DNA of 54,925 nucleotides from a virus. The notes under the pieces are model-generated. The model was not told the DNA's origin. It worked only from the letters and a program-made list of their open reading frames with translations, and made no database searches. A program made the position numbers and the translations under genes. Where the stretch lies: positions 1 through 54,925 of IMG/VR virus record IMGVR_UViG_3300020021_000017; one strand, given 5' to 3'. Shown piece after piece: positions 3,434 through 54,925 of the stretch. How positions within the stretch are numbered: position 1 is the first letter of the stretch; the number at the start of each line of letters is the position of its first letter.

Positions 3434-3593
3434 AGATTGGTACAATTACTCGGTGTTGTGCCTTGATCATCCTATCCCGGTATACCGGGAACGTTCGGCA
3501 ACATTTGCGATGTCGGAGATTGCTCAGGTTGAGCTTGTGGAACGCCTGGTTGAGACTGCTGCGCTGGTATGGCCTGCGCCTGAAGGGCAGTAA
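3423..3593 (+). CDS. Possible truncated small gene at convergent junction
   Basis: ATG 3423 has a good site (GAGGAAAG) and begins MKIKDWYNYS, echoing MNLKDKDWYS of the gene at 3034. The remaining 40 or so residues are antisense to the end of the portal gene, so the C-terminus is probably accidental. It is best read as a gene family member cut off where the plus-strand block meets the minus-strand packaging operon. It may or may not be expressed. Confidence 0.3.
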   Translation: MKIKDWYNYSVLCLDHPIPVYRERSATFAMSEIAQVELVERLVETAALVWPAPEGQ

Positions 3594-5388
3594 CATCTTG
3601 TATGTACTGACGCAACATATCTAAACTTGTTTCTTCGGCATTATCACGTTTAGCTCTGGCATAGTACTGAATACCAAATTGCAATGCTTGTGCTAAATCA
3701 TCGTAAGCCTCAGGAGGTGTATAAATACCTTCTTCAATGATCTTGTCTAGGCTTTCTTCAATATAATCAAGAGGAGCATTGGAAATATCTTCGTAGAAGT
3801 CTAGATCTGGAAAGTGTAACAATTGTTTACCAACTTGAGGAGAAATCATTCCAGCTTGCATTAACTTCTGTACTTCATCAAGCCGTCCTGCAGGCTCTTT
3901 AGGCAAACTCGATTCTGGGAAACATTGAATGATGAAATCATCTTTAGCTAAGTTAAACTCAGGAAAATCAATCTTTTCAACAGCATTCTTACCCGGACAA
4001 ACAGTGGAATAAGAGCCCTCTCTTTCAAAGATTTCTTGAGCTTTATCAATGATTTGATAAGCTAGGTCAATAAACATTTTCTCATAATTCTGCGCAGTTA
4101 TTGCAAATCTATCAGATGAAATGTTATCATAAGCTTTGATTGCTTCGCCTGAATCCAACCCTGCCGGCTTTTGACTAGAAGCTTGCATCTCAGATACACC
4201 TGATTGTTTATAGGCATATTGCACCAAACGATCACGTTCTTGGTATATCTCGGCAGGAACGCAGGGCGCAACTTCGTACTCTGGCTTTGTGCCTTGATAC
4301 TTTACAATAGCGCCGATCTGATTATTGATGTGAGCAGAGACAACTTTACTGCCCTCTTCCACGAACACCCTAGGAACACCAACAAGATTGATAGACTGCT
4401 GAATAACATAACAAAGTTTATTAATCTCATTCTGAATCCCCATTAACTGTTCGGCCAAACCTTGTGCCCAAAAGCCCAAAGTCCTTGGAGCATAATTAAA
4501 GAATATGAATGGGAAGGTTTTCTTGGTATATTCTTCTTTAAGCATTATCCCACTATTAATAGAGATAACATGTAGTCCATCTGTGGCGTCTGATCCCGAA
4601 GGAAGATGCCAAGATTCTACTACCATTACTTGATCAGATATTGAGCGATGAGAATCCCCACTTTGATCAAATGATCCGCCTTCTGCTGATTGTATAAGGG
4701 CTTTTTTAGAAGGGAACATTGCAGTTAATTGAGAACGATCCATTAACTTAAGTTGATGTAGTTGCCTTGGATTACCGTAAAGAGATTCAATTTCATCAAC
4801 ATAGATCTCGGTATTTAATGTGCGTTCAATGCAAACTTTATTGTCTACTTCGTAAATCTTTACAACACCGGTACCTAGAATGAAGCTATCTATACAAACT
4901 TGTTGCAATATTTCATTAGCCTTTAATCGATACAATTCTCCATCAGAGAACTTATTAAGATCTTTAGACAACTTACGTTTCTTGTAATCCCCACCTGATG
5001 TTAAGAATACAGGGCGGGGTTTAGATTGGGCGATTTTAGCTTTAAGAGTATCACAGCATGATTGGACCACATTGAGAGTTACTCGATCTGCATTATTCTT
5101 ATATTGAGCATTCATCTTGGTGAGGTTCACTCCAAGCCAAGAATATAGAGGCATGTTACCATAAAGACGGGCATAAAGAGCGGCTTGGTGCTGACGATAC
5201 AATTGATTGGTCTTAAGATAACCAACAACACCAAAGATAGTTCCAACCATTTCTTTAGCATCTAATTCCCACCACTTACCTTCAACAGCATAGTTGCCAT
5301 CTTTAATATCAAAGCCTTTGGAAGCTTTTTTCTTACTATTCTTGTTGTTAAGTGAGGCAATGGGATCATGTTTGGTAACTTTTGCCAT
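3472..5388 (-). CDS. Portal (head-tail connector) protein
   Basis: The portal dodecamer forms the DNA channel at the capsid vertex and docks the terminase and tail. The 638-residue length fits podovirus portals. Supporting segments are the N-terminal RQHQAALYARLYGN, the central KVCIERTLNTEIYVDEIE, and the typical SGEAIKAYDNISSDRF motif in the helical stem/crown region. The C-terminus is Gln/Pro-rich and low-complexity. It is the last gene of the minus-strand packaging operon, downstream of the terminase. Assignment is from recalled family pattern. Confidence 0.85.
   Translation of the reverse strand: MAKVTKHDPIASLNNKNSKKKASKGFDIKDGNYAVEGKWWELDAKEMVGTIFGVVGYLKTNQLYRQHQAALYARLYGNMPLYSWLGVNLTKMNAQYKNNADRVTLNVVQSCCDTLKAKIAQSKPRPVFLTSGGDYKKRKLSKDLNKFSDGELYRLKANEILQQVCIDSFILGTGVVKIYEVDNKVCIERTLNTEIYVDEIESLYGNPRQLHQLKLMDRSQLTAMFPSKKALIQSAEGGSFDQSGDSHRSISDQVMVVESWHLPSGSDATDGLHVISINSGIMLKEEYTKKTFPFIFFNYAPRTLGFWAQGLAEQLMGIQNEINKLCYVIQQSINLVGVPRVFVEEGSKVVSAHINNQIGAIVKYQGTKPEYEVAPCVPAEIYQERDRLVQYAYKQSGVSEMQASSQKPAGLDSGEAIKAYDNISSDRFAITAQNYEKMFIDLAYQIIDKAQEIFEREGSYSTVCPGKNAVEKIDFPEFNLAKDDFIIQCFPESSLPKEPAGRLDEVQKLMQAGMISPQVGKQLLHFPDLDFYEDISNAPLDYIEESLDKIIEEGIYTPPEAYDDLAQALQFGIQYYARAKRDNAEETSLDMLRQYIQDVTALQAQAIPAQQSQPGVPQAQPEQSPTSQMLPNVPGIPG
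3475..3490. repeat. 16-bp perfect palindrome at convergent gene ends
   Basis: TCCCGGTATACCGGGA is self-complementary and directly follows the portal stop codon complement (3472-3474), so it encodes the portal's final Gly-Ile-Pro-Gly. It sits where opposing transcription units meet. There is no T-run, so a standard terminator is not supported. It could be a protein-binding site or chance. Confidence 0.5.
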
Positions 5389-5817: not shown

Positions 5818-7263
5818 TTACTTCCGCCATTTCTCTAACTCATCGAAAAGATCTTGAGGAGCGCCGCCATTTGCTTCTTCTTCATAATGCTTTACTTCAG
5901 CTGCTTCCATTTTCTCAGCTTCTTTTTGCCAGTACGATTCTGAATATAATACAGGTGTAGGTTTTGTCGATATCTCAAAATGTGCGTTTATAGGTTTGAA
6001 TGCATATAATACTGCATCACAGATATCTGAATGAAAACGTTTACTTACTACTAATTTATCTGGAGTACTTTTGTCATAATCCCACTCCATTTTGGACGCA
6101 TCTTGTGCAAATCTGGAAGTAGGTTTGGCTTTGAAGCGACCTGTTCTAAGGCAGTCATTTAGCAAGGATATATTTTCATTTTTCCTTATCTTGTCAGCTG
6201 CTTCTACAGGCAAACTCCAGCGTTTACTAAATTCTTCTTGGATCTTTTTGCCCAAAGCCCCAGCGTCAATAATAGTTTTATATGGGGCGTATTTATGCCT
6301 AAAATACTCAATATCTTGAGCTAGAGCAGATATATCTTGTTTACGAGTTATTTTTTCTTCTATCAGATATACATCTCTAGAACCAGTCGCATAGCCTAGA
6401 ATTACTAATGCATCTGCATCTTTGAAGCCAATATCTACTCCAAGCACGTAGTTATTTATTTTGGGAGGTAATTCTGTATAACTATTTAATTTCTCATCAT
6501 AATGTATAACTAATGAATCGCTGTCTAAGATCCATTCACCGAAATACTCGCGTCTTATCGAAGGATTATTTATACTTACCCCTCTACGTTTCAATTCTGC
6601 ATTCAATAGCTCTATGTGGCTTTTACCACTTAATTGTTCTATGAATACATTATCAAAATAAGTCCAATGGTGTCTACTCCATTCTTGCGCAGAATTAGTT
6701 GAAACCTCATAAAAATACCCTGCCGGTATAGGACCGGGAGTGCCCGTTAGGATTAAAGAGCCGTCCAAGTCTAACAGTGCCGGTGCTACTACATCATCGA
6801 TAAGTTGAGTTATATATTCAGGAAATGATTGTGCTTCGTCGATAAATGCTTTTTTAAGCTTTGCAATTCCTCGAAACTTCTCAATCTCAGTGCGGTCATG
6901 GGCACCAGATACATAGATTTTTGATTCATTAGGTAAAGTTAGGCTTAACTCTACTTCATTAGTCTTTCCATCAAGTTTAAACTCCCTATTGAATTGTCTC
7001 AAAACAGGCCAGATAATCGTTTTAGCGTGAGCCCTGCTAGTAGTAATATAAAGCTGATTGCAATTAGGGTTTGTAGCAGCAGTCATAAGTAGTTCCAATG
7101 CTTCTGCGTGTGATTTACCTGCGCGTCTAGAGCACATTGCAACTTTATACTTTGAGGTATCTTCAATGAAAGCAAGTTGCTTAGGAAAGCAGAGTTTACT
7201 TAAATCTATAGTAGTATTGGAGCGTTTATTAAGCTCAGCTAGTACTTTCGTCAAATTGGACAT
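5818..7263 (-). CDS. terL: Terminase large subunit
   Basis: This is the ATP-driven DNA packaging motor with a nuclease domain, 481 residues. The ATPase domain has Walker A CSRRAGKS (about 44-51), Walker B KKAFIDEAQ (137-145) and the coupling motif LTGTPGP (172-178). The RNase H-like nuclease shows GVDIGFKDAD (D277), IIDAGALG (D333) and SDICDAVLYAF (acidic pair near 413/416). Its start overlaps the preceding HNH-like gene by 29 nt. It is upstream of the portal, a usual pairing. Confidence 0.95.
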   Translation of the reverse strand: MSNLTKVLAELNKRSNTTIDLSKLCFPKQLAFIEDTSKYKVAMCSRRAGKSHAEALELLMTAATNPNCNQLYITTSRAHAKTIIWPVLRQFNREFKLDGKTNEVELSLTLPNESKIYVSGAHDRTEIEKFRGIAKLKKAFIDEAQSFPEYITQLIDDVVAPALLDLDGSLILTGTPGPIPAGYFYEVSTNSAQEWSRHHWTYFDNVFIEQLSGKSHIELLNAELKRRGVSINNPSIRREYFGEWILDSDSLVIHYDEKLNSYTELPPKINNYVLGVDIGFKDADALVILGYATGSRDVYLIEEKITRKQDISALAQDIEYFRHKYAPYKTIIDAGALGKKIQEEFSKRWSLPVEAADKIRKNENISLLNDCLRTGRFKAKPTSRFAQDASKMEWDYDKSTPDKLVVSKRFHSDICDAVLYAFKPINAHFEISTKPTPVLYSESYWQKEAEKMEAAEVKHYEEEANGGAPQDLFDELEKWRK

Positions 7264-15297: not shown

Positions 15298-15351
15298 AAA
15301 TTTTAATAAACCACGAAGCCTTAGGGCTGAGTATGAATGGAGTGAATGAGT

Positions 15352-15792
15352 ATGAAGGAACTTAAAGTAGTTGGTGGTGTAGTAAAGGAAGAGATCTTGA
15401 TGTATTATCAACCTAATGCACCTAAGACGCCTCATGCCAAAGTGAAAGCTTTGACTGTTGGTAAACCAATCTTGGGAACGTATGAAGGATCATTTGTTAA
15501 CAAGTTCGATAAGCGCAATCACCGCATTAAGACTTCCAAAGGTCTCATTGCAGTTGTTGGTTCTGCTGGTCTTGACAAGGATATGGTTCAAGTTGACCTT
15601 GGTGCGGATATCTCTGTAATGTATAAGGGTACTAAAGAGATTAAGTCGGGAATGTATAAGGGAAAGAAAGCTCATAGTTACGAAGTTAAGGCTAGTTCTT
15701 TTGACGCAAATCGTAAAGTTGAGGTTAAAGCCGCGCTTAAAGTAGCTGCTCCTGTAATTGATACCGAGGTGGACGATAACGATCCTTTTTAA
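15352..15792 (+). CDS. ssb: Single-stranded DNA-binding protein-like
   Basis: Start 15352 (146 residues) has GGAG at 9 nt; an ATG at 15346 is alternative. The product is Lys-rich with beta-barrel-like alternation (IAVVGSAGLD, VQVDLGADISVMYKGTKE...) and ends in an acidic tip, VDDNDPF. That matches the protein-recruiting acidic tail of SSBs (compare DDDIPF). It sits between the exonuclease and helicase genes. No further family evidence. Confidence 0.65.
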   Translation: MKELKVVGGVVKEEILMYYQPNAPKTPHAKVKALTVGKPILGTYEGSFVNKFDKRNHRIKTSKGLIAVVGSAGLDKDMVQVDLGADISVMYKGTKEIKSGMYKGKKAHSYEVKASSFDANRKVEVKAALKVAAPVIDTEVDDNDPF

Positions 15793-16200: not shown

Positions 16201-16533
16201 ATGAATGCCCTGGACCTAACTAAATTATTCGCGTGTACTTGGAAAGAGCGGTACGGAAAGCCCTATACAATAAATTTTGGTCGCGATTCGTCGATGTTTA
16301 AAACATTGTTGACAGACTTTACAGACCTAGATATTCAAGATATGATCAAGTTCTATTTATTCGAATTACAGAGCACTTTTGCTATTGAAGGTGGGCATAC
16401 AACTGCAATATTTAAATATTGTATACCACAAATAATTGCCGAAATGCAAAGATATAAGAAAATCGAAGAAGCAGCAAAGAACGTTGATAAAACAGATTTT
16501 CAGCGTTTGCAAGAAGCTAGAAAGAAGCTATGA
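16201..16533 (+). CDS. Hypothetical replication-associated protein, possible helicase loader
   Basis: This encodes 110 residues, helical: LFACTWKERYGKPYTINFGRDSSMFKTLL..., a pattern seen in small phage proteins preceding DnaB-type helicases and thought to act as loaders or replisome organisers. It overlaps the helicase gene by 4 nt (ATGA), supporting a joint role. The assignment is by pattern and context only. Confidence 0.5.
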   Translation: MNALDLTKLFACTWKERYGKPYTINFGRDSSMFKTLLTDFTDLDIQDMIKFYLFELQSTFAIEGGHTTAIFKYCIPQIIAEMQRYKKIEEAAKNVDKTDFQRLQEARKKL

Positions 16534-17363
16534 AATCTTTAGAAGAAGCCTGTATAAGGACTAATTGGGATTCTTTTGTATCTTATTTAGATCGCAGGGT
16601 GTCGGGCATTCAGACGGGTATTACAGCCCTAGATTCATATTTACTTGGTCTGGGCGGTGTAACTGTGATCCAAGGAGATACTGGAACAAATAAATCCACC
16701 CTTATGTTGCAAATTGCTCTTCATCAATTAATGCAAGGAAATCCAGCGCTTATTATAGATCGTGAAAACGGTCAAGGTAGACTTCGCAGTCGTCTAACTT
16801 GCCAACTTAACGGCATTTCTGAAACAGACTTGCTTGTAGGAACTAGAGAGCAAAGATTATTTTGGGTTAAGCCAGTTACAAGACTACCTTTTTATATTTA
16901 CACTGAGAGCGTTTCTGATTTTGTAATTCTAGAAACCCGCATAAAAGAAATGGCAGACCTTTACCCAGACAAACCCCTGCTCCTAATCATAGATTCTCTA
17001 CAAGCTCTTGTCCCAGTTAACGAGGACCAAAGAGTTAGCCTCGAGAAATGGCTTTATTGGGCCGATGGGATGAAGGTACAATATGACGGTAGGTTGACTA
17101 TCCTAGCAACTTCAGAGGTTCGTAGAGCCTCTTATGAGGTTAAGGAGGCAATAGGACGGGCTAAAGGAACTAACGCGGTGGAATACAAAGCAGAAGTACT
17201 TTTGAACTTAAAAGAGGTTGCTGACACAGGTGAGATTAAAGTTGAAGTTGCAAAGAATCGTGATAATATTAAAGGTGCGACAATACTTTTACGCAAGGTT
17301 TTTGCAGATCCAAGTAATAATAGAAGTTTTACTTTTTGCTTAGAAGGAGCGGATGAATTATGA
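16530..17363 (+). CDS. RecA/DnaB-like replicative helicase ATPase
   Basis: This encodes 277 residues without a DnaB N-terminal domain. QTGITALDSYLLGLGGVTVI leads into Walker A GDTGTNKST (about 50-58), where the usual glycine before Lys is Asn. LLLIIDSLQALVP is the Walker B region (about 151-163), followed by ILATSEVRR. The C-terminal KVEVAKNRDNIKGA matches the DnaB/KaiC motif near the ATP site. It is likely the replicative helicase acting with the family A polymerase. Adjacent genes overlap by 4 nt. Confidence 0.75.
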   Translation: MKSLEEACIRTNWDSFVSYLDRRVSGIQTGITALDSYLLGLGGVTVIQGDTGTNKSTLMLQIALHQLMQGNPALIIDRENGQGRLRSRLTCQLNGISETDLLVGTREQRLFWVKPVTRLPFYIYTESVSDFVILETRIKEMADLYPDKPLLLIIDSLQALVPVNEDQRVSLEKWLYWADGMKVQYDGRLTILATSEVRRASYEVKEAIGRAKGTNAVEYKAEVLLNLKEVADTGEIKVEVAKNRDNIKGATILLRKVFADPSNNRSFTFCLEGADEL

Positions 17364-18172
17364 TTTGTAGTCTTTGTAACATGGAAGCAATTGTAAATCA
17401 AGCTGAAGGGAAAGAATTCTTTTACTGCCGAACTTGTAAGATTGAGCCAACAGAAAAGAGAGATATAAACTATCCCATCTTACCTCCAGGTTCTATACAT
17501 TATAATGCAAATACTTTCCCCGGTTCCGTTAATCCCTCTTTCGGACCATTGATCCCCGCTTCCCGAGCATTCTTTGATAATGTTTCTAAAATCCAATCTT
17601 CGCCGCATCAGTTAGGTTCCGCTCTTAGAATTCCGTTCACGATAACAACACAAACGGGATTGCTCCCATCTTCGCCGCATCACTTGCTTTCTTTATCGAC
17701 ACCAATAGTTTTGTGGTGGCTTATTCCAGCCGATCTAAATCCCTTCTCAGTTTACTTAAATAAATGGCTACCCGGTTCCTTACAACTTAGTACGCTACCT
17801 GATATATTTTATGGTATTGATCGCAATCTTGATCGAATACAATTGGCTGGAAATTGGTATGACGGGACAGGCAAAACTATAGAAGAAGGTATAATAAATT
17901 TATCTTATGATATTATGCAAAGAGGAGGAAATGTAGACACAGTATTCATGCATTTAACAGATTTTACTAATCTTTGTAAACATTTAGGGAATTTCTCTCC
18001 CATTTCATATCATACAATAATCTATAGCCACTCCAAAATTAATGTATATCCTGATTCAGATTGTCCAAAAGGTTTTGTTTATCTAGTTCAAATGAATACT
18101 TGGGAATACAGTCTTAATTTTAATGCACTTTACTGCACTAATCTTGCATTCAATGGAGTATTGAAACTATGA
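17360..18172 (+). CDS. Zinc-ribbon protein with major-capsid-protein-like C-terminal domain
   Basis: This encodes 270 residues. Residues 3-26 hold a zinc ribbon (CSLC...CRTC). Residues 27-145 are Pro/Ser-rich with LPPGSIHYNA. Residues 150-252 align with residues 261-380 of this phage's own capsid protein (45997-47292): FYGIDRNLD/FWGVDRSVD, QLAG/RLAG, YDGTGKTIEE/FDGSGESIEE, CPKGFVYLVQMNTWEYSL/CPQQMCYLLELDVWKLRSL. The first 61 aligned positions hold about 24 identities by hand count. It overlaps the helicase gene (17360-17363) and a small Zn protein (18169-18172). Role unknown: captured capsid fragment, assembly regulator or decoy are possibilities. Confidence 0.8.
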   Translation: MICSLCNMEAIVNQAEGKEFFYCRTCKIEPTEKRDINYPILPPGSIHYNANTFPGSVNPSFGPLIPASRAFFDNVSKIQSSPHQLGSALRIPFTITTQTGLLPSSPHHLLSLSTPIVLWWLIPADLNPFSVYLNKWLPGSLQLSTLPDIFYGIDRNLDRIQLAGNWYDGTGKTIEEGIINLSYDIMQRGGNVDTVFMHLTDFTNLCKHLGNFSPISYHTIIYSHSKINVYPDSDCPKGFVYLVQMNTWEYSLNFNALYCTNLAFNGVLKL

Positions 18173-18363
18173 AGAAGCCAATTATTCGTTGTGAACGCTG
18201 TCATCATGAAGGAAGAGTAGAAAAATTACATTGTTTCGTTTGTGCTGGTTGCAAGAGAGTGGTAGAGTATAAGAATACTGACAAGAAACTTTTTGTGGAA
18301 ATTGATTTAGGACTGTGCAATCCGTGTCATGAAAGATGTCCTCATAGACCAGAAGGAATGTAA
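18169..18363 (+). CDS. Small multi-CxxC zinc protein
   Basis: This encodes 64 residues with CERC, CFVCAGC and CNPC/C pairs, enough for two zinc ribbons. It overlaps the gene before by 4 nt and abuts the polymerase start. A structural or nucleic-acid-binding accessory to replication is plausible from position. Confidence 0.6.
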   Translation: MKKPIIRCERCHHEGRVEKLHCFVCAGCKRVVEYKNTDKKLFVEIDLGLCNPCHERCPHRPEGM

Positions 18364-20432
18364 TGAGACCAAAAAATCCTAAATTTATTTGTGTAGATTG
18401 TGAAACAACAGGATTAGACTGGACAAAAGATACCTTACATGGCTTTGCTTACGCTTATGAAGAAGGTGAAGCAATTTATGTTAATGTTTCAGATATACCT
18501 AATTATGTAAAAGAGGATTTGGAAAATTCCGCTATTTCAGTTATTGGTCATAATCTGCATGCGTTTGATGCAAAGTTTCTATTTGCCATAGGGATTAAGA
18601 TACAAGGCAAAATGATTGAAAATATGGGTATTTGGCAATTATTGGATGACACTACTCCTTTAGGTTTGAAATTCTTGTCTGAAAAGCATATTGGTCTTGA
18701 ATCATTGGAACGTAAAAGGCTTCTGGATGACACTATTAAAAAAGCAGGAGTTTCTAATATTGCTGGGCTATGTGCCAAAGATTTACTTGATGCTTCTCAT
18801 CCATATCTAAAAGTAATTGGCGATTATTGTGAAGAAGATTGTAATAATACTTTACACCTGGCACTTCTAGGCATGGAAAAACTTAAAGAATTAGATAAGA
18901 AACTTAAAGAAAAATATAGGGTTACTAAAACTCCTCTTGATTACTTCCGAGAAGAATTCACTCCTCTTGAGAGTGTTCTGTTTAAAATTGAGACTGAGGG
19001 GTTTCGAGTTAATTTGGCTGTCATTGAGAAGTTGAGGGCAAGTGCCGAGATCAAACGGGATGAGTTGACTGCGCGCCTTAATAAGGGCTTTAAAGAGCAA
19101 ATTGCAATTATTGAAGATAAGCTGTACCAGTCAGCCCTGCTTAAACTAGTGATGCCTGCTGCAAAAGCTAAACGTATAAAAGGAGAAGGTAAATTAGCTT
19201 TTAGTTGGGAGAATGCTAATCACGTAGCAATCCTATTCTTCGAGCATACTAATTTCCCAGAGGAATTCATCCGTAGGACCGCTAGAGGTAGTTATGCTAC
19301 TGATAAGACTTATATTAACGGGCTAATGCAGTCATTACCCAAAGGGCACATTCTCCTAAAAGCAATTCCTATCTATGCAAAATATAAGTTAAATCAAAAG
19401 GTACTCACTACTTATACAGGAGATTCTGAAAAGGGTATTTATTCGAAAATCAGAAAAGGTGAGGACGGTAATCATTACATTTATCCTACTTTTCGGCAGA
19501 CAACTACTACTGGAAGATTGGCGTGCAAATCTCCAAACATGCAGAATATTCCACGAAACTCTCCCATTAAAGAATTATTCATACCTACTCAAGAGGGTAA
19601 TGTGTTTGATCATTTCGATTATAGCCAGATAGAATTAAGGATTGCGGGGCATTTGGCTAATGACAAAGATATCATTGCTGCGTATATTAATGGTGATGAT
19701 GTACATAAACAAACAGCAGCCACACTTTTTGAAATACCTATTACGGAAGTCACAGATATTCAAAGACAAGTTGGTAAAACATCTAATTTTTTAACGATTT
19801 ATAAAGGAGGTGCTTATAGATTGCAGGAAAGTCTCAGACAGCCAAATGGCTCATATCCGGGGCTCGAGTTTAGTAAAGAAGAGTGCCAAGAGTTTATTGA
19901 TAAATTCTTTGAACGCTATCCTGATCTTACTAAGTACCTCGCAAATGTACTCGTATTTGTTAGGAAAAACAGGTTTGTAATTAGCGAAGTGGGACGTATT
20001 CGAAGGTTAAGTGATATTGCTTTTGGTGATGAAGGCAACCTTAATTACAAAACTAAACGGTTTGGTGGTACACAACAACAAAGACAATTAATTATACAAG
20101 ACTTCAAAACAAAGAGTATACCAAATCCTTCTGAAGATGATATTTTCTGGGCCGCGCACAAGCGCTATAATCATGCAGTTAAGCAAGCATTTAACTTCCC
20201 AGATCAATCCTTATCTGCTAGTATAATTAAGCGCGCAATGATTAAGTTACATGCTGATGGTATTTCAATTCGTAATCAAGTGCATGACTCATTAGATATT
20301 GAGAGAGAAGAGAAGTTTACCAGTAAAACAGATTATGTACGGCATGTAATGGAAACTATCTATCCTTGCAGGCTTCCAATTAAAGTAGATTTTAAGACAC
20401 TTAGGAGTTTCAGTGAAGAAGATAAAGCCTAA
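18363..20432 (+). CDS. polA: Family A DNA polymerase with 3'-5' exonuclease
   Basis: This encodes 689 residues. The N-terminal DnaQ-like exonuclease has FICVDCETTGLDW (D12, E14), IGHNLHAFD and YCEEDCNNT. The palm/fingers have TTTGRLACKSPNMQNIPR, motif A DYSQIELRIAGHLA (about 419), motif B RQVGKTSNFLTIY (about 467) and motif C QVHDSLDIE (about 640). Motif B has Phe at the position governing sugar discrimination; T7 polymerase has Tyr there. No 5'-3' nuclease domain. This is the replicative polymerase of the phage. The HNH gene starts inside its end. Confidence 0.95.
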   Translation: MRPKNPKFICVDCETTGLDWTKDTLHGFAYAYEEGEAIYVNVSDIPNYVKEDLENSAISVIGHNLHAFDAKFLFAIGIKIQGKMIENMGIWQLLDDTTPLGLKFLSEKHIGLESLERKRLLDDTIKKAGVSNIAGLCAKDLLDASHPYLKVIGDYCEEDCNNTLHLALLGMEKLKELDKKLKEKYRVTKTPLDYFREEFTPLESVLFKIETEGFRVNLAVIEKLRASAEIKRDELTARLNKGFKEQIAIIEDKLYQSALLKLVMPAAKAKRIKGEGKLAFSWENANHVAILFFEHTNFPEEFIRRTARGSYATDKTYINGLMQSLPKGHILLKAIPIYAKYKLNQKVLTTYTGDSEKGIYSKIRKGEDGNHYIYPTFRQTTTTGRLACKSPNMQNIPRNSPIKELFIPTQEGNVFDHFDYSQIELRIAGHLANDKDIIAAYINGDDVHKQTAATLFEIPITEVTDIQRQVGKTSNFLTIYKGGAYRLQESLRQPNGSYPGLEFSKEECQEFIDKFFERYPDLTKYLANVLVFVRKNRFVISEVGRIRRLSDIAFGDEGNLNYKTKRFGGTQQQRQLIIQDFKTKSIPNPSEDDIFWAAHKRYNHAVKQAFNFPDQSLSASIIKRAMIKLHADGISIRNQVHDSLDIEREEKFTSKTDYVRHVMETIYPCRLPIKVDFKTLRSFSEEDKA

Positions 20433-22275: not shown

Positions 22276-22346
22276 GTAATAATAAGCATTTAATTTAACT
22301 TGCAAATTGCAACTTCTTGTGTAATTATGGAAAAAGGAGGTGTTCT

Positions 22347-22886
22347 TTGAGCGTCATTACGTCAAATCGAAAAATAGTGTTTTCTGGAAGCATTAATGAA
22401 GAATCAACAGCCGAACTGATAGCCGCCCTGCTTTCTATGAATTGCTACACAGATGAAGAAGTAACACTAATCATCAATAGTGGTGGTGGGCATTTAGATG
22501 ATGGTATAGGTATATATGATTGTATCCGCTCCCTTCCATATAAAACTCATGGTATAGTGTTTGGGCAAGCTAGTTCTGCAGCAGTATTGATATTGCAAGC
22601 ATGTACTATGAGAACAATAGGTGAGAATTCTATTATTATGGTACATGCAGGTTCCGTAGGTATCGATGCTAGACATCCTGAGGAAACATTTAAACAAGTA
22701 AAGACTTCCGTAGATATGGTAAGAAGAACAACGAAAATCCTTGCTTTAGCTTGTGGTATTGATGTAAAATTAATGAGTAGAAGAATGAGATTCGGATCTT
22801 CTTATGTTGGACAAAAGGCTGTTGATGCGGGGTTTGTAGACAATGTACTTAAAATAGGAGATTTATACCGTGGAATTAAAGTTTAA
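22347..22886 (+). CDS. ClpP-like serine protease
   Basis: TTG 22347 follows a full AGGAGG (22335-22340) with 6-nt spacing, giving 179 residues; the longer frame from 22317 starts upstream of that site. ClpP-fold features are LIINSGGGHLDDGIGIYD (oxyanion loop and handle), GQASSAAVLI with nucleophile Ser77, and MVHAG with His100. The usual third Asp in the tdrD region is not evident (MSRRMRFG). It lies in the replication operon rather than with the head genes, so it may be a host-directed or regulatory protease, or the displaced prohead protease. Confidence 0.8.
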   Translation: MSVITSNRKIVFSGSINEESTAELIAALLSMNCYTDEEVTLIINSGGGHLDDGIGIYDCIRSLPYKTHGIVFGQASSAAVLILQACTMRTIGENSIIMVHAGSVGIDARHPEETFKQVKTSVDMVRRTTKILALACGIDVKLMSRRMRFGSSYVGQKAVDAGFVDNVLKIGDLYRGIKV

Positions 22887-45996: not shown

Positions 45997-47292
45997 CTAG
46001 GCTGACAACCGGATTACGCAGTTCCAACCAGGCGCACTAGTGATCAAATTGGCATAATAACCAATTCGGATCTCTAATGCATCCGCAGTACCAACGCGAA
46101 GACCTTCAAGGCCTTCCATGCCGTACGTGAGGATATGAGGCGCTTTTCCAAGCGACCGCAGCTTCCACACGTCTAGCTCCAGGAGGTAGCACATCTGCTG
46201 TGGGCAGTTACGGTCAGGAATGACCGTGATCGGGCCGTACGGAGCATGAACAGTGATACCCTTAAACGCGATATCTCCCATGCCACCTTCACCGTCATCG
46301 CCGCGCACATCAACATATTGCACCTTACTTCCCAATTCTTTTTCAAGAGCTGAGTAGGATGCGAAGTTCATGAAGCACATTTCAGGCGCTCCGCCTTCTC
46401 GTGCAACAAGTGAACTTCCGTCAATGAGGGCTTCTTCGATTGATTCGCCTGATCCGTCAAAACGGACGCCTGCGAGTCTGGTCACATCAACTGATCTGTC
46501 CACTCCCCAGAAACTGTCGCCAGTAACAGGAGCAATGAACGGCAACCACGCGGCTAAACCAGCAACCTTCAAGAACGAAGTCGTTCCAGAAGCGCCAGCT
46601 GCACCGATGTCACCCTGCGCCACTAGGAAGCTCAAGGCCGCCCATTGTGCAGAAGGAGTTGCACTTGAGGATAACAGAATCAACTGACCCGTAGATCGAT
46701 TAACATTGGTGACTTGAGCAGTCGTAGCAGAAGGAACGCCGCCATCAGTAGCAGTTGCAACTAACGTCATTCCAACTTCGAACTGTACGATGTCATTCGT
46801 GTCAAGCAGAACGATCGTGATGACCGTACCGACCAACGCGTATGTACCAATTTGTCCGCGTGTACCCGTTCCACTGCGGAACAAGTCACCGGCTAAGTCA
46901 TTCGAGATCGAACGAAATGAGGCATCAACCTGGAGCTTGCCTTCGTCCAAAAACGCACCCGCATTCTGTCCCGTTGCGGCTTCGAGAAGCTCGTTCGAGA
47001 TAGATGCGATCACGTAGTTGCTTACTCGGAATACAAAGAAACTTTGCATCTGAGTAGGCGTTTGATTAAGCTGAGCATTCGCAAACGTAGCGGATCTTCC
47101 TTGCGGAGTTCCGTAGATCAACGGCACGGGAATATACTTTCCCGCGAACCCTTGAGGACTTTCGTCCTTAGGGATAATGGCCAACATCGGATTCTTTTTA
47201 TAAACTAGATCTTTCATGTACTCGGTAGGATTGTCGTACAATTCCTTGAGTGCAGCGATCTGGTTCGTTGCATTATTAAAAACTGGAGGCAT
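45997..47292 (-). CDS. Major capsid protein (HK97 fold)
   Basis: This encodes 431 residues. N-terminal ALKELYDNPTEYMKDLVYKKNPMLAIIPKDES, the mid segment FFVFRVSNYVIASISNELLEAATG, DVTRLAGVRFDGSGESIEEALIDG and the C-terminal YLLELDVWKLRSL.KAPH fit HK97-fold capsids of podoviruses. Residues 150-245 hold an inserted beta domain. It follows the scaffold gene and is GC-richer than its surroundings, as expected for a highly expressed gene. Residues 261-380 recur in the protein at 17360. Confidence 0.85.
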   Translation of the reverse strand: MPPVFNNATNQIAALKELYDNPTEYMKDLVYKKNPMLAIIPKDESPQGFAGKYIPVPLIYGTPQGRSATFANAQLNQTPTQMQSFFVFRVSNYVIASISNELLEAATGQNAGAFLDEGKLQVDASFRSISNDLAGDLFRSGTGTRGQIGTYALVGTVITIVLLDTNDIVQFEVGMTLVATATDGGVPSATTAQVTNVNRSTGQLILLSSSATPSAQWAALSFLVAQGDIGAAGASGTTSFLKVAGLAAWLPFIAPVTGDSFWGVDRSVDVTRLAGVRFDGSGESIEEALIDGSSLVAREGGAPEMCFMNFASYSALEKELGSKVQYVDVRGDDGEGGMGDIAFKGITVHAPYGPITVIPDRNCPQQMCYLLELDVWKLRSLGKAPHILTYGMEGLEGLRVGTADALEIRIGYYANLITSAPGWNCVIRLSA

Positions 47293-52401: not shown

Positions 52402-53184
52402 ATGAAATATAAATTTACTGGATTAACGAAAATTGCTGCAGGTATTACACTGCGACAAATTATTCGTAAAGCAGATAAAAAGATCGGCGGTTGGATTGAG
52501 AAAGAAACTAATCTAGCTCAAAATGGCGATGCTTGGGTATATGGCGATGCTCGGGTATATGGCGATGCTCGGGTGTACGGTGATGCTCAGGTGTACGGCA
52601 ATGCTCAGGTGTATGGCAATGCTCGGGTATATGGCACTGCTTGGATATTCGGCAATGCTCAGGTGTATAGCAATGCTCAGGTGTACGTCAATGCTCAGGT
52701 GTATGGCAATGCTCGGGTATATGGCACTGCTTGGATATTCGGCGATGCTTGGGTATATGGCGATGCTCGGGTGTACGGTGATGCTCGGGTATACAGCAAT
52801 GCTCAGGTATACGGCGCTGCTTGGGTATATGGCAATACTTGGGTATACGGCGATGTTCGGGTGTACGGTGATGCTCAGGTGTATGGCAATGCTCAGGTGT
52901 ATGGCAATGCTCGGGTATATGGCACTGCTTGGATATTCGGCAATGCTCAGGTGTACGGCAATGCTCAGGTGCTTCAATCAATAGATATTATAAATATTAT
53001 AATCCGCCCTTATTCAATAACTATCACTCCGCAAAACATCGTTATTGGGTGTCAAATGAGATCTAGGTTTGGAAAAGAACAATGGAAAGTAACCGATAAA
53101 GGCGTAACTGCGAATTTAATTAAACAATATAAGCCTTTTCTTTCTTTACTTAAAAAACAAGTTCCTCGTAGTAAAGGAAAGTAA
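52402..53184 (+). CDS. Hexapeptide-repeat left-handed beta-helix protein, copy 1
   Basis: This encodes 260 residues. Residues 1-41 are a unique basic domain (MKYKFTGLTKIAAGITLRQ). About residues 42-190 hold some 25 hexapeptide repeats of the form [GN][DN]A[RQW]VY (DNA unit 18 bp), the pattern of a left-handed parallel beta-helix. The last 70 residues are a basic tail with RFGKEQWKVTDKGV. The repeat array opens false frames on both strands. The C-terminal tail may bind nucleic acid or membrane; transferase residues are not visible. Confidence 0.8.
   Translation: MKYKFTGLTKIAAGITLRQIIRKADKKIGGWIEKETNLAQNGDAWVYGDARVYGDARVYGDAQVYGNAQVYGNARVYGTAWIFGNAQVYSNAQVYVNAQVYGNARVYGTAWIFGDAWVYGDARVYGDARVYSNAQVYGAAWVYGNTWVYGDVRVYGDAQVYGNAQVYGNARVYGTAWIFGNAQVYGNAQVLQSIDIINIIIRPYSITITPQNIVIGCQMRSRFGKEQWKVTDKGVTANLIKQYKPFLSLLKKQVPRSKGK
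52525..52975 (+). repeat. Array of degenerate 18-bp tandem repeats
   Basis: About 25 units of 18 bp with consensus like GGCGATGCTCGGGTATAT, with variants GATGCTC, AATGCTC, ACTGCTT. The order of variants includes higher-order blocks (for example the 54-bp block at 52609-52662 repeats at 52699-52752). Such arrays can gain or lose units by slippage. Confidence 0.85.
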
Positions 53185-54389: not shown

Positions 54390-54437
54390 AGGAAAGTAAT
54401 TTTTTAATTATAGATCGAATCTAACGGAGGATATCTA

Positions 54438-54925
54438 ATGAAATATAAATTTACTGGATTAACGAAAATTGCTGCAGGTATTACACTGCGACAAATTATT
54501 CGTAAAGCAGATAAAAAGATCGGCGGTTGGATTGAGAAAGAAACTAATCTAGCTCAAAATGGCGATGCTTGGGTATATGGCGATGCTCGGGTATATGGCG
54601 ATGCTCGGGTGTACGGTGATGCTCAGGTGTACGATTATGCTTGGATATCCGGCAATGCTCGGGTATATGGCGATGCTTGGATATTCGGCAATGCTCAGGT
54701 ATACGGCGATGTTCGGGTGTATGGCAATGCTCAGGTGTATGGCAATGCTCAGGTGTATGGCGATGCTCGGGTATATGGCGATGCTCGGGTGTACGGTGAT
54801 GCTCAGGTGTACGGCAATGCTCAGGTGCTTCAATCAATAGATATTATAAATATTATAATCCGCCCTTATTCAATAACTATCACTCCGCAAAACATCGTTA
54901 TTGGGTGTCAAATGAGATCTAGGTT
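54438..54925 (+). CDS. Hexapeptide-repeat beta-helix protein, copy 2 (5' part)
   Basis: The first about 190 nt are identical to copy 1, then the repeat array differs and is shorter (about 15 units). The segment after the array is again identical up to the window end. The gene continues at bases 1-131, giving 200 residues in total. The same leader with GGAGG precedes it. Confidence 0.75.
   Translation, partial: MKYKFTGLTKIAAGITLRQIIRKADKKIGGWIEKETNLAQNGDAWVYGDARVYGDARVYGDAQVYDYAWISGNARVYGDAWIFGNAQVYGDVRVYGNAQVYGNAQVYGDARVYGDARVYGDAQVYGNAQVLQSIDIINIIIRPYSITITPQNIVIGCQMRSR
54559..54830 (+). repeat. Shorter 18-bp tandem repeat array
   Basis: About 15 units of the same 18-bp type as 52525-52975. 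The order of variant units differs from copy 1 after the fifth unit (GATTATGCTTGG appears only here), showing independent expansion or shuffling while both flanks stayed identical. Confidence 0.8.
54910..54925. repeat. 16-bp terminal repeat (assembly closure)
   Basis: The final 16 bases equal the first 16 (AAATGAGATCTAGGTT). They join the two parts of one reading frame without a shift. This is consistent with a circular or circularly permuted genome, but the same sequence also exists internally at 53056-53071. Confidence 0.85.

Follow-up and report, generated by a model that had tools for sequence, protein, structure and literature searches.

A gene at positions 17360-18172 (+) of the analysed window, the 54,925-nt viral record IMGVR_UViG_3300020021_000017, encodes a 270-aa protein in which a predicted N-terminal zinc ribbon is fused to a domain homologous to part of the phage's own major capsid protein (MCP). 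The gene lies in a replication operon between helicase and DNA polymerase genes, and the same fusion occupies the same slot in a related phage. We consider it probable that this is an exapted capsid module, inherited, folded and non-assembling, carried on a ribbon protein that is made with the replication proteins. Any particular function proposed for the fusion is tentative at best.

Gene organisation and operon context

The open frame starts with an ATG, 10 nt downstream of a ribosome-binding site read from the sequence (AAGGAG, 17344-17349, +). Its start overlaps the stop of the upstream DnaB/RecA-like helicase gene (16530-17363, +; PF13481, 2.7e-11; phrog_19, 2e-16) by 4 nt (ATGA), and its stop overlaps by 4 nt a second zinc-ribbon ORF of 64 aa (18169-18363, +; C..C/C..C motif, with a homologue in the related phage), and this ORF leads directly into the gene for a family A DNA polymerase (18363-20432, +; PF00476, 4.8e-62). 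This arrangement agrees with the preliminary description, in which the ORF was said to be coupled to the helicase gene in a replication operon and encoded opposite to the head genes: the MCP (45997-47292), portal (3472-5388) and terminase (5818-7263) genes are all found on the minus strand. A gene for a ClpP-like serine protease (22317-22886, +; PF00574, 3e-24) is located in the replication cluster and not beside the head genes.

Residues 1-30 (17360-17449, +) are a predicted zinc ribbon, as had been described, with two CxxC knuckles (C3/C6 and C23/C26) in the sequence, placed around a beta hairpin in the AlphaFold model (pLDDT 84-90). The linker that follows, residues 31-132 (17450-17755, +), lacks recognisable homology and is predicted to be disordered (block pLDDT 35-56), with predicted disorder spanning about residues 37-160. 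Similarity of residues 32-132 to the MCP was no better than that of shuffled sequences, and a search with the DNA of this middle region returned no match.

Relationship to the major capsid protein

The remainder of the protein, residues 133-270 (17756-18169, +), is capsid-derived and corresponds to a remnant of the MCP P/A domain. The MCP itself (45997-47292, -) matches the NCBIfam equivalog NF033394 (capsid_maj_Podo) at 88.2 bits against a cutoff of 80, and the Pfam SU10_MCP family only weakly. BLASTP aligns fusion residues 133-249 with MCP residues 246-377 at 41 of 137 identical positions (30%; E 4e-19), the matching MCP segment (residues 246-378) being encoded at 46159-46557 (-), and the alignment score of 165 compares with 33±4.7 in 2000 shuffles (maximum 61; Z 28). 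These statistics confirm the similarity to the phage's own MCP reported in the preliminary description, and the best tblastx block (39% over 64 aa) bears out its hand count of about 24 identities in 61 positions; the alignment begins near residue 133 (KWLP...), however, and not at residue 150 as had been given. One deletion of ~20 aa (MCP residues about 320-344) falls within the match and a second of ~34 aa (381-414) lies ahead of the last strand, while the final residues of the fusion (NGVLKL) also align with the MCP C-terminus.

The idea that the resemblance reflects chance, or an unrelated family sharing the same motifs, draws on the fact that the ORF is recognised by no Pfam, PHROG or NCBIfam model and falls below every profile threshold, but these profiles offer no other family to explain the motifs, the BLASTP and shuffle statistics refute chance similarity, and the homologue from the related phage independently matches the window MCP at 1e-13, leaving this explanation a negligible probability. 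In an all-against-all BLASTP of window ORFs the fusion-MCP pair was the only internal similarity crossing functions, the rest being neighbouring paralogues or repeats. Elsewhere in the window, two adjacent ORFs of 75-79 aa (2324-2780, +) are 76% identical, an apparent tandem duplication, and two YdcK/bactofilin-like beta-solenoid genes (52402-53184 and 54414-54925, +; the second truncated where the contig stops) are 66% identical.

Predicted fold and missing capsid elements

AlphaFold modelled residues 161-270 with ten-residue block means of pLDDT 66-95, and the elements of this model (H174-187, E194-197, H199-209, E218-222, E225-231, E239-243, E248-251, E256-259, E266-269) follow the same order as those of the MCP model (H285-298, E305-308, H310-319, E346-350, E353-359, E367-371, E376-380, E414-418, E425-428). 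Among the matches listed by VIA-align, 50 of 50 were HK97-fold shells, either phage or encapsulin (best Z 10.2), and the top Foldseek match of the domain was the SU10 capsid (8.5e-5); sequence queries against solved structures were uninformative. The preliminary description had regarded a lack of overlap with the HK97 A/P domain as fatal to a capsid origin; all three methods instead returned the HK97 fold, with the caveat that the alignment supplied to AlphaFold included MCP rows, which makes this support dependent on homology. The models thus support an HK97 P/A fold for residues 161-270, in the sense that the sequence is compatible with that fold rather than independent proof of it.

Both the alignment and the AlphaFold model lack any counterpart of MCP residues 1-245 in the fusion, and with them the N-arm, E-loop and spine helix, while MCP residues 381-414, at the expected position of the P-loop, are deleted according to the sequence alignment. 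In HK97, the N-arm, E-loop, spine helix and P-loop are the parts that link capsomers, and the A domain sits at the capsomer centre. Because these capsomer-linking elements (probably including the P-loop) are absent, the capsid domain of the fusion is unlikely to form shells.

A syntenic homologue and its distribution

A search of related phages, as the preliminary description had proposed, recovered the same fusion between the helicase and polymerase genes of IMGVR_UViG_3300043540_000524, where a 229-aa homologue (L016:7060-7749) consists of ribbon, linker and capsid domain. The helicases of the two phages are 74% identical, the polymerases 67% and the MCPs 80-83%. An assembly chimera is ruled out as the source of the fusion, since this syntenic second case comes from a separately assembled record. 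Taken together, BLASTP, shuffles, AlphaFold and operon comparison uphold the earlier picture of a capsid-derived domain fused to a ribbon in a replication-operon setting.

No record other than IMGVR_UViG_3300043540_000524 was found to combine the same helicase with a close polymerase; the search for the helicase covered an IMG/VR scan and 21 records, the later 48 being outside it. The homologue itself was reached only through the polymerase locus. The fusion was present in 2 of the 70 records examined: across the 68 further records scanned with a fusion profile, the MCP itself was all that the capsid part matched, and MCP queries against 69 records revealed no third A-domain fusion. Direct searches with the 270-aa protein gave no match in INPHARED phages or IMG/VR, and a search for the MCP among named phages likewise gave no relative. 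IMG/VR and GTDB genomes were also scanned with a profile of two rows and with a DNA pattern for the ribbon; these scans yielded ribbons on other tails but no additional fusion, a result that does not extend to an individual inspection of the 19 genome loci matching the ribbon pattern. Eight of the 68 further records, several of them nearly identical to one another, carry the ribbon N-terminal to other tails.

Divergence, selection and origin

Between the two phages the ribbon is 60% identical, the capsid part 32%, and the linker and tail 24-32%. Rapid change alone does not imply lost function, since an SSB-like gene (15346-15792; 33%), the 64-aa ribbon ORF (35%) and a 206-aa gene beside the terminase (pre-terminase; 32%) diverge comparably fast in the same pair. 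The fusion in the window keeps 24 of 42 positions conserved in all MCPs compared with 11 of 35 conserved in the clade only (p 0.021), and its homologue keeps 24 of 39 compared with 7 of 33 (p 0.0006); co-retention in both fusions has a p of 0.0015, a value inflated by shared ancestry. The 32% identity of the capsid parts also exceeds the 19±5% of a neutral simulation without stops (reached in 5 of 1000). Based on two sequences and an alignment that favours the signal, these comparisons give a modest signal of selection on the capsid fold.

Both fusions share the two internal deletions (MCP about 320-344 and 381-414) and the derived residues Y132, V192, D201, G238, V240 and Y250, which argues for a single origin. 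In trees both formed very long branches with weak sisterhood (88/90; 94/45), such that the trees neither placed the donor MCP nor firmly tested a single origin, and an independent origin from the MCP of the window phage itself was not rejected (AU p 0.139 and 0.467).

Inferred role of the fusion protein

We posit a single fusion event in which the C-terminal P/A part of an MCP of this clade, devoid of N-arm, E-loop and spine helix and also of two internal segments, became attached to a small zinc-ribbon protein that is specific to the clade and encoded between the helicase and DNA polymerase genes. The attached part would since have persisted as a module that folds but does not assemble, in a protein co-translated with the replication proteins. 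Exaptation had been among the possibilities raised at the outset and, understood as retained and inherited reuse, it is borne out by the syntenic homologue, the preferentially kept core positions and an identity above neutral simulation. We infer that the fusion is expressed early. The ribbon may bind nucleic acid or a protein partner, and the capsid domain might be a stable carrier whose surface changes fast and contacts a host factor, such as a defence protein that recognises capsids, at a time before real capsids exist; this pairing of roles is a guess, and doubtful as it stands.

The main rival, which we regard as unlikely though it deserves serious weight, is a captured tail of little function, in which the ribbon does the work, the MCP 3' fragment behind it is the residue of accidental recombination, and coupling of translation to the downstream ribbon and polymerase through the stop-start overlap is the main reason why the frame stays open. 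The ATGA overlaps, the contrast between the 60% conserved ribbon and the 24-32% of linker and tail, and the quite different tails on ribbon proteins of other clade members would all be expected under this scenario. It accounts less well for the preferential keeping of core capsid positions, for identity above that of the no-stop neutral simulation and for retention of the fold-forming segment in both lineages.

The retained part includes the A domain, the portion found at the capsomer centre in HK97, and the gene is located in the replication operon, both of which suit an A-domain decoy that, made with the replication proteins, would occupy host capsid sensors before functional capsids appear. 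Capsid sensing is established: a capsid protein is a proven trigger of CapRel (PMC9712102), and staphylococcal Thoeris is capsid-triggered, with its sensor modelled at the centre of the MCP hexamer (PMC11312562). A decoy, however, should track its own MCP, whereas the fusion is no closer to its own (30%) than to others (37-39% to the L001 MCP) even though the two phages' MCPs are 80-83% identical, and Thoeris requires a hexamer, which the fusion piece should not form. We therefore judge a decoy improbable. Doubtful to a greater degree is an assembly inhibitor or timer, that is, an A-domain fragment binding MCP capsomers and delaying shell assembly during replication; keeping the intracapsomer domain while losing the intercapsomer elements is the make-up expected of a dominant-negative protein, but an interface with a partner conserved at 80-83% should itself be conserved, and the domain is 32% identical.

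Fast divergence alongside such similar MCPs argues mildly against any role needing an exact copy of, or tight binding to, the phage's own MCP. A decoy or timer appears to suit this rate less well than does either a tolerated tail or a module whose partner changes quickly, as a host factor might. The exapted module may possibly serve in counter-defence or protein binding, the former reading drawing on the fact that capsid proteins trigger CapRel and Thoeris.

Other self-fragments in the clade

In IMGVR_UViG_3300015199_000002, the tail of a ribbon protein (L022:7986-8465) resembles the phage's own DNA polymerase (L186:3427-5535, -) around SGxxxGRFxCxNPN (SGTVTGRFQCVNPNPSSIP), scoring 72 against 31±4 with none of 2000 shuffles reaching that score (BLASTP 3e-4 within the genome). 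Four different small ORFs of 101-124 aa in five records (L009:3321-3686, +; L171:1992-2366, -; L172:1831-2136, -; L173:225-548, +) terminate in a piece of the MCP N-arm (about MCP residues 10-60, DLVYxxNPFLAL.PK...PVP), the ORFs of L009 and L171 standing directly before the large-terminase gene and after a likely small-terminase gene. A ribbon protein of G055 containing GLTAWLP reached only p 0.03 against its MCP and was not counted as a self-fragment.

In three relatives the MCP gene is split near codon 52-57 by an HNH-endonuclease ORF (L002:10001-11929, L009:9272-11146, L010:5465-7394), an intron-like interruption near where the N-arm pieces stop; Rfam at gathering thresholds identified no intron in the window or at three loci, the L002 and L010 loci included and L009 not covered. 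Given this proximity, and the link between homing endonucleases and domain shuffling in phages (PMC10448857), break-and-repair around homing endonucleases is a plausible source of such fragments, although the boundaries of the A-domain piece lie elsewhere than the split site. A broader proposal would be a long shot: that phages of the clade repeatedly attach parts of proteins essential to themselves (the A-domain and N-arm of the MCP, the motif A region of the DNA polymerase) to small accessory proteins and use them as self-mimics, for example to absorb host sensors of those proteins.

Comparison with known systems and significance

The fusion resembles SU10/Podo-type HK97-fold MCPs (PF17236, NF033394) in P/A sequence and predicted fold, but differs from them in the loss of the N-arm, E-loop, spine helix and apparently the P-loop, in the added zinc ribbon and in its replication-gene setting. 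Encapsulins, which are cellular HK97-fold shells, reuse the fold outside the virion, as the fusion presumably does; they keep the shell-forming elements and form compartments, whereas the fusion piece is without these elements. Fv1, a capsid-derived restriction factor of animals exapted as an inhibitor, shares the principle of a capsid-derived exapted protein and is otherwise an analogy, protein and system being unrelated. To our knowledge, the capsid-remodelling proteins of satellites are not MCP fragments. Like the fusion they are products of non-structural genes, but they act around capsids (PLE external scaffold, PMC10945586; SaPI, PMC12409344) and belong to satellites, whereas the fusion is a phage-encoded MCP fragment. 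Neither a fusion of a capsid fragment to a zinc ribbon nor a truncated MCP turned up as a precedent in a literature search whose coverage left most subscription papers outside.

The further self-fragments in the clade suggest that the A-domain fusion is not a lone accident. HK97-fold proteins are known as shells, and this very common viral fold would have found a new use if a P/A domain, trimmed and unable to assemble, is retained in a replication-operon protein. The fusion provides a concrete gene with which to ask whether phages turn pieces of their capsids against capsid-sensing immunity.
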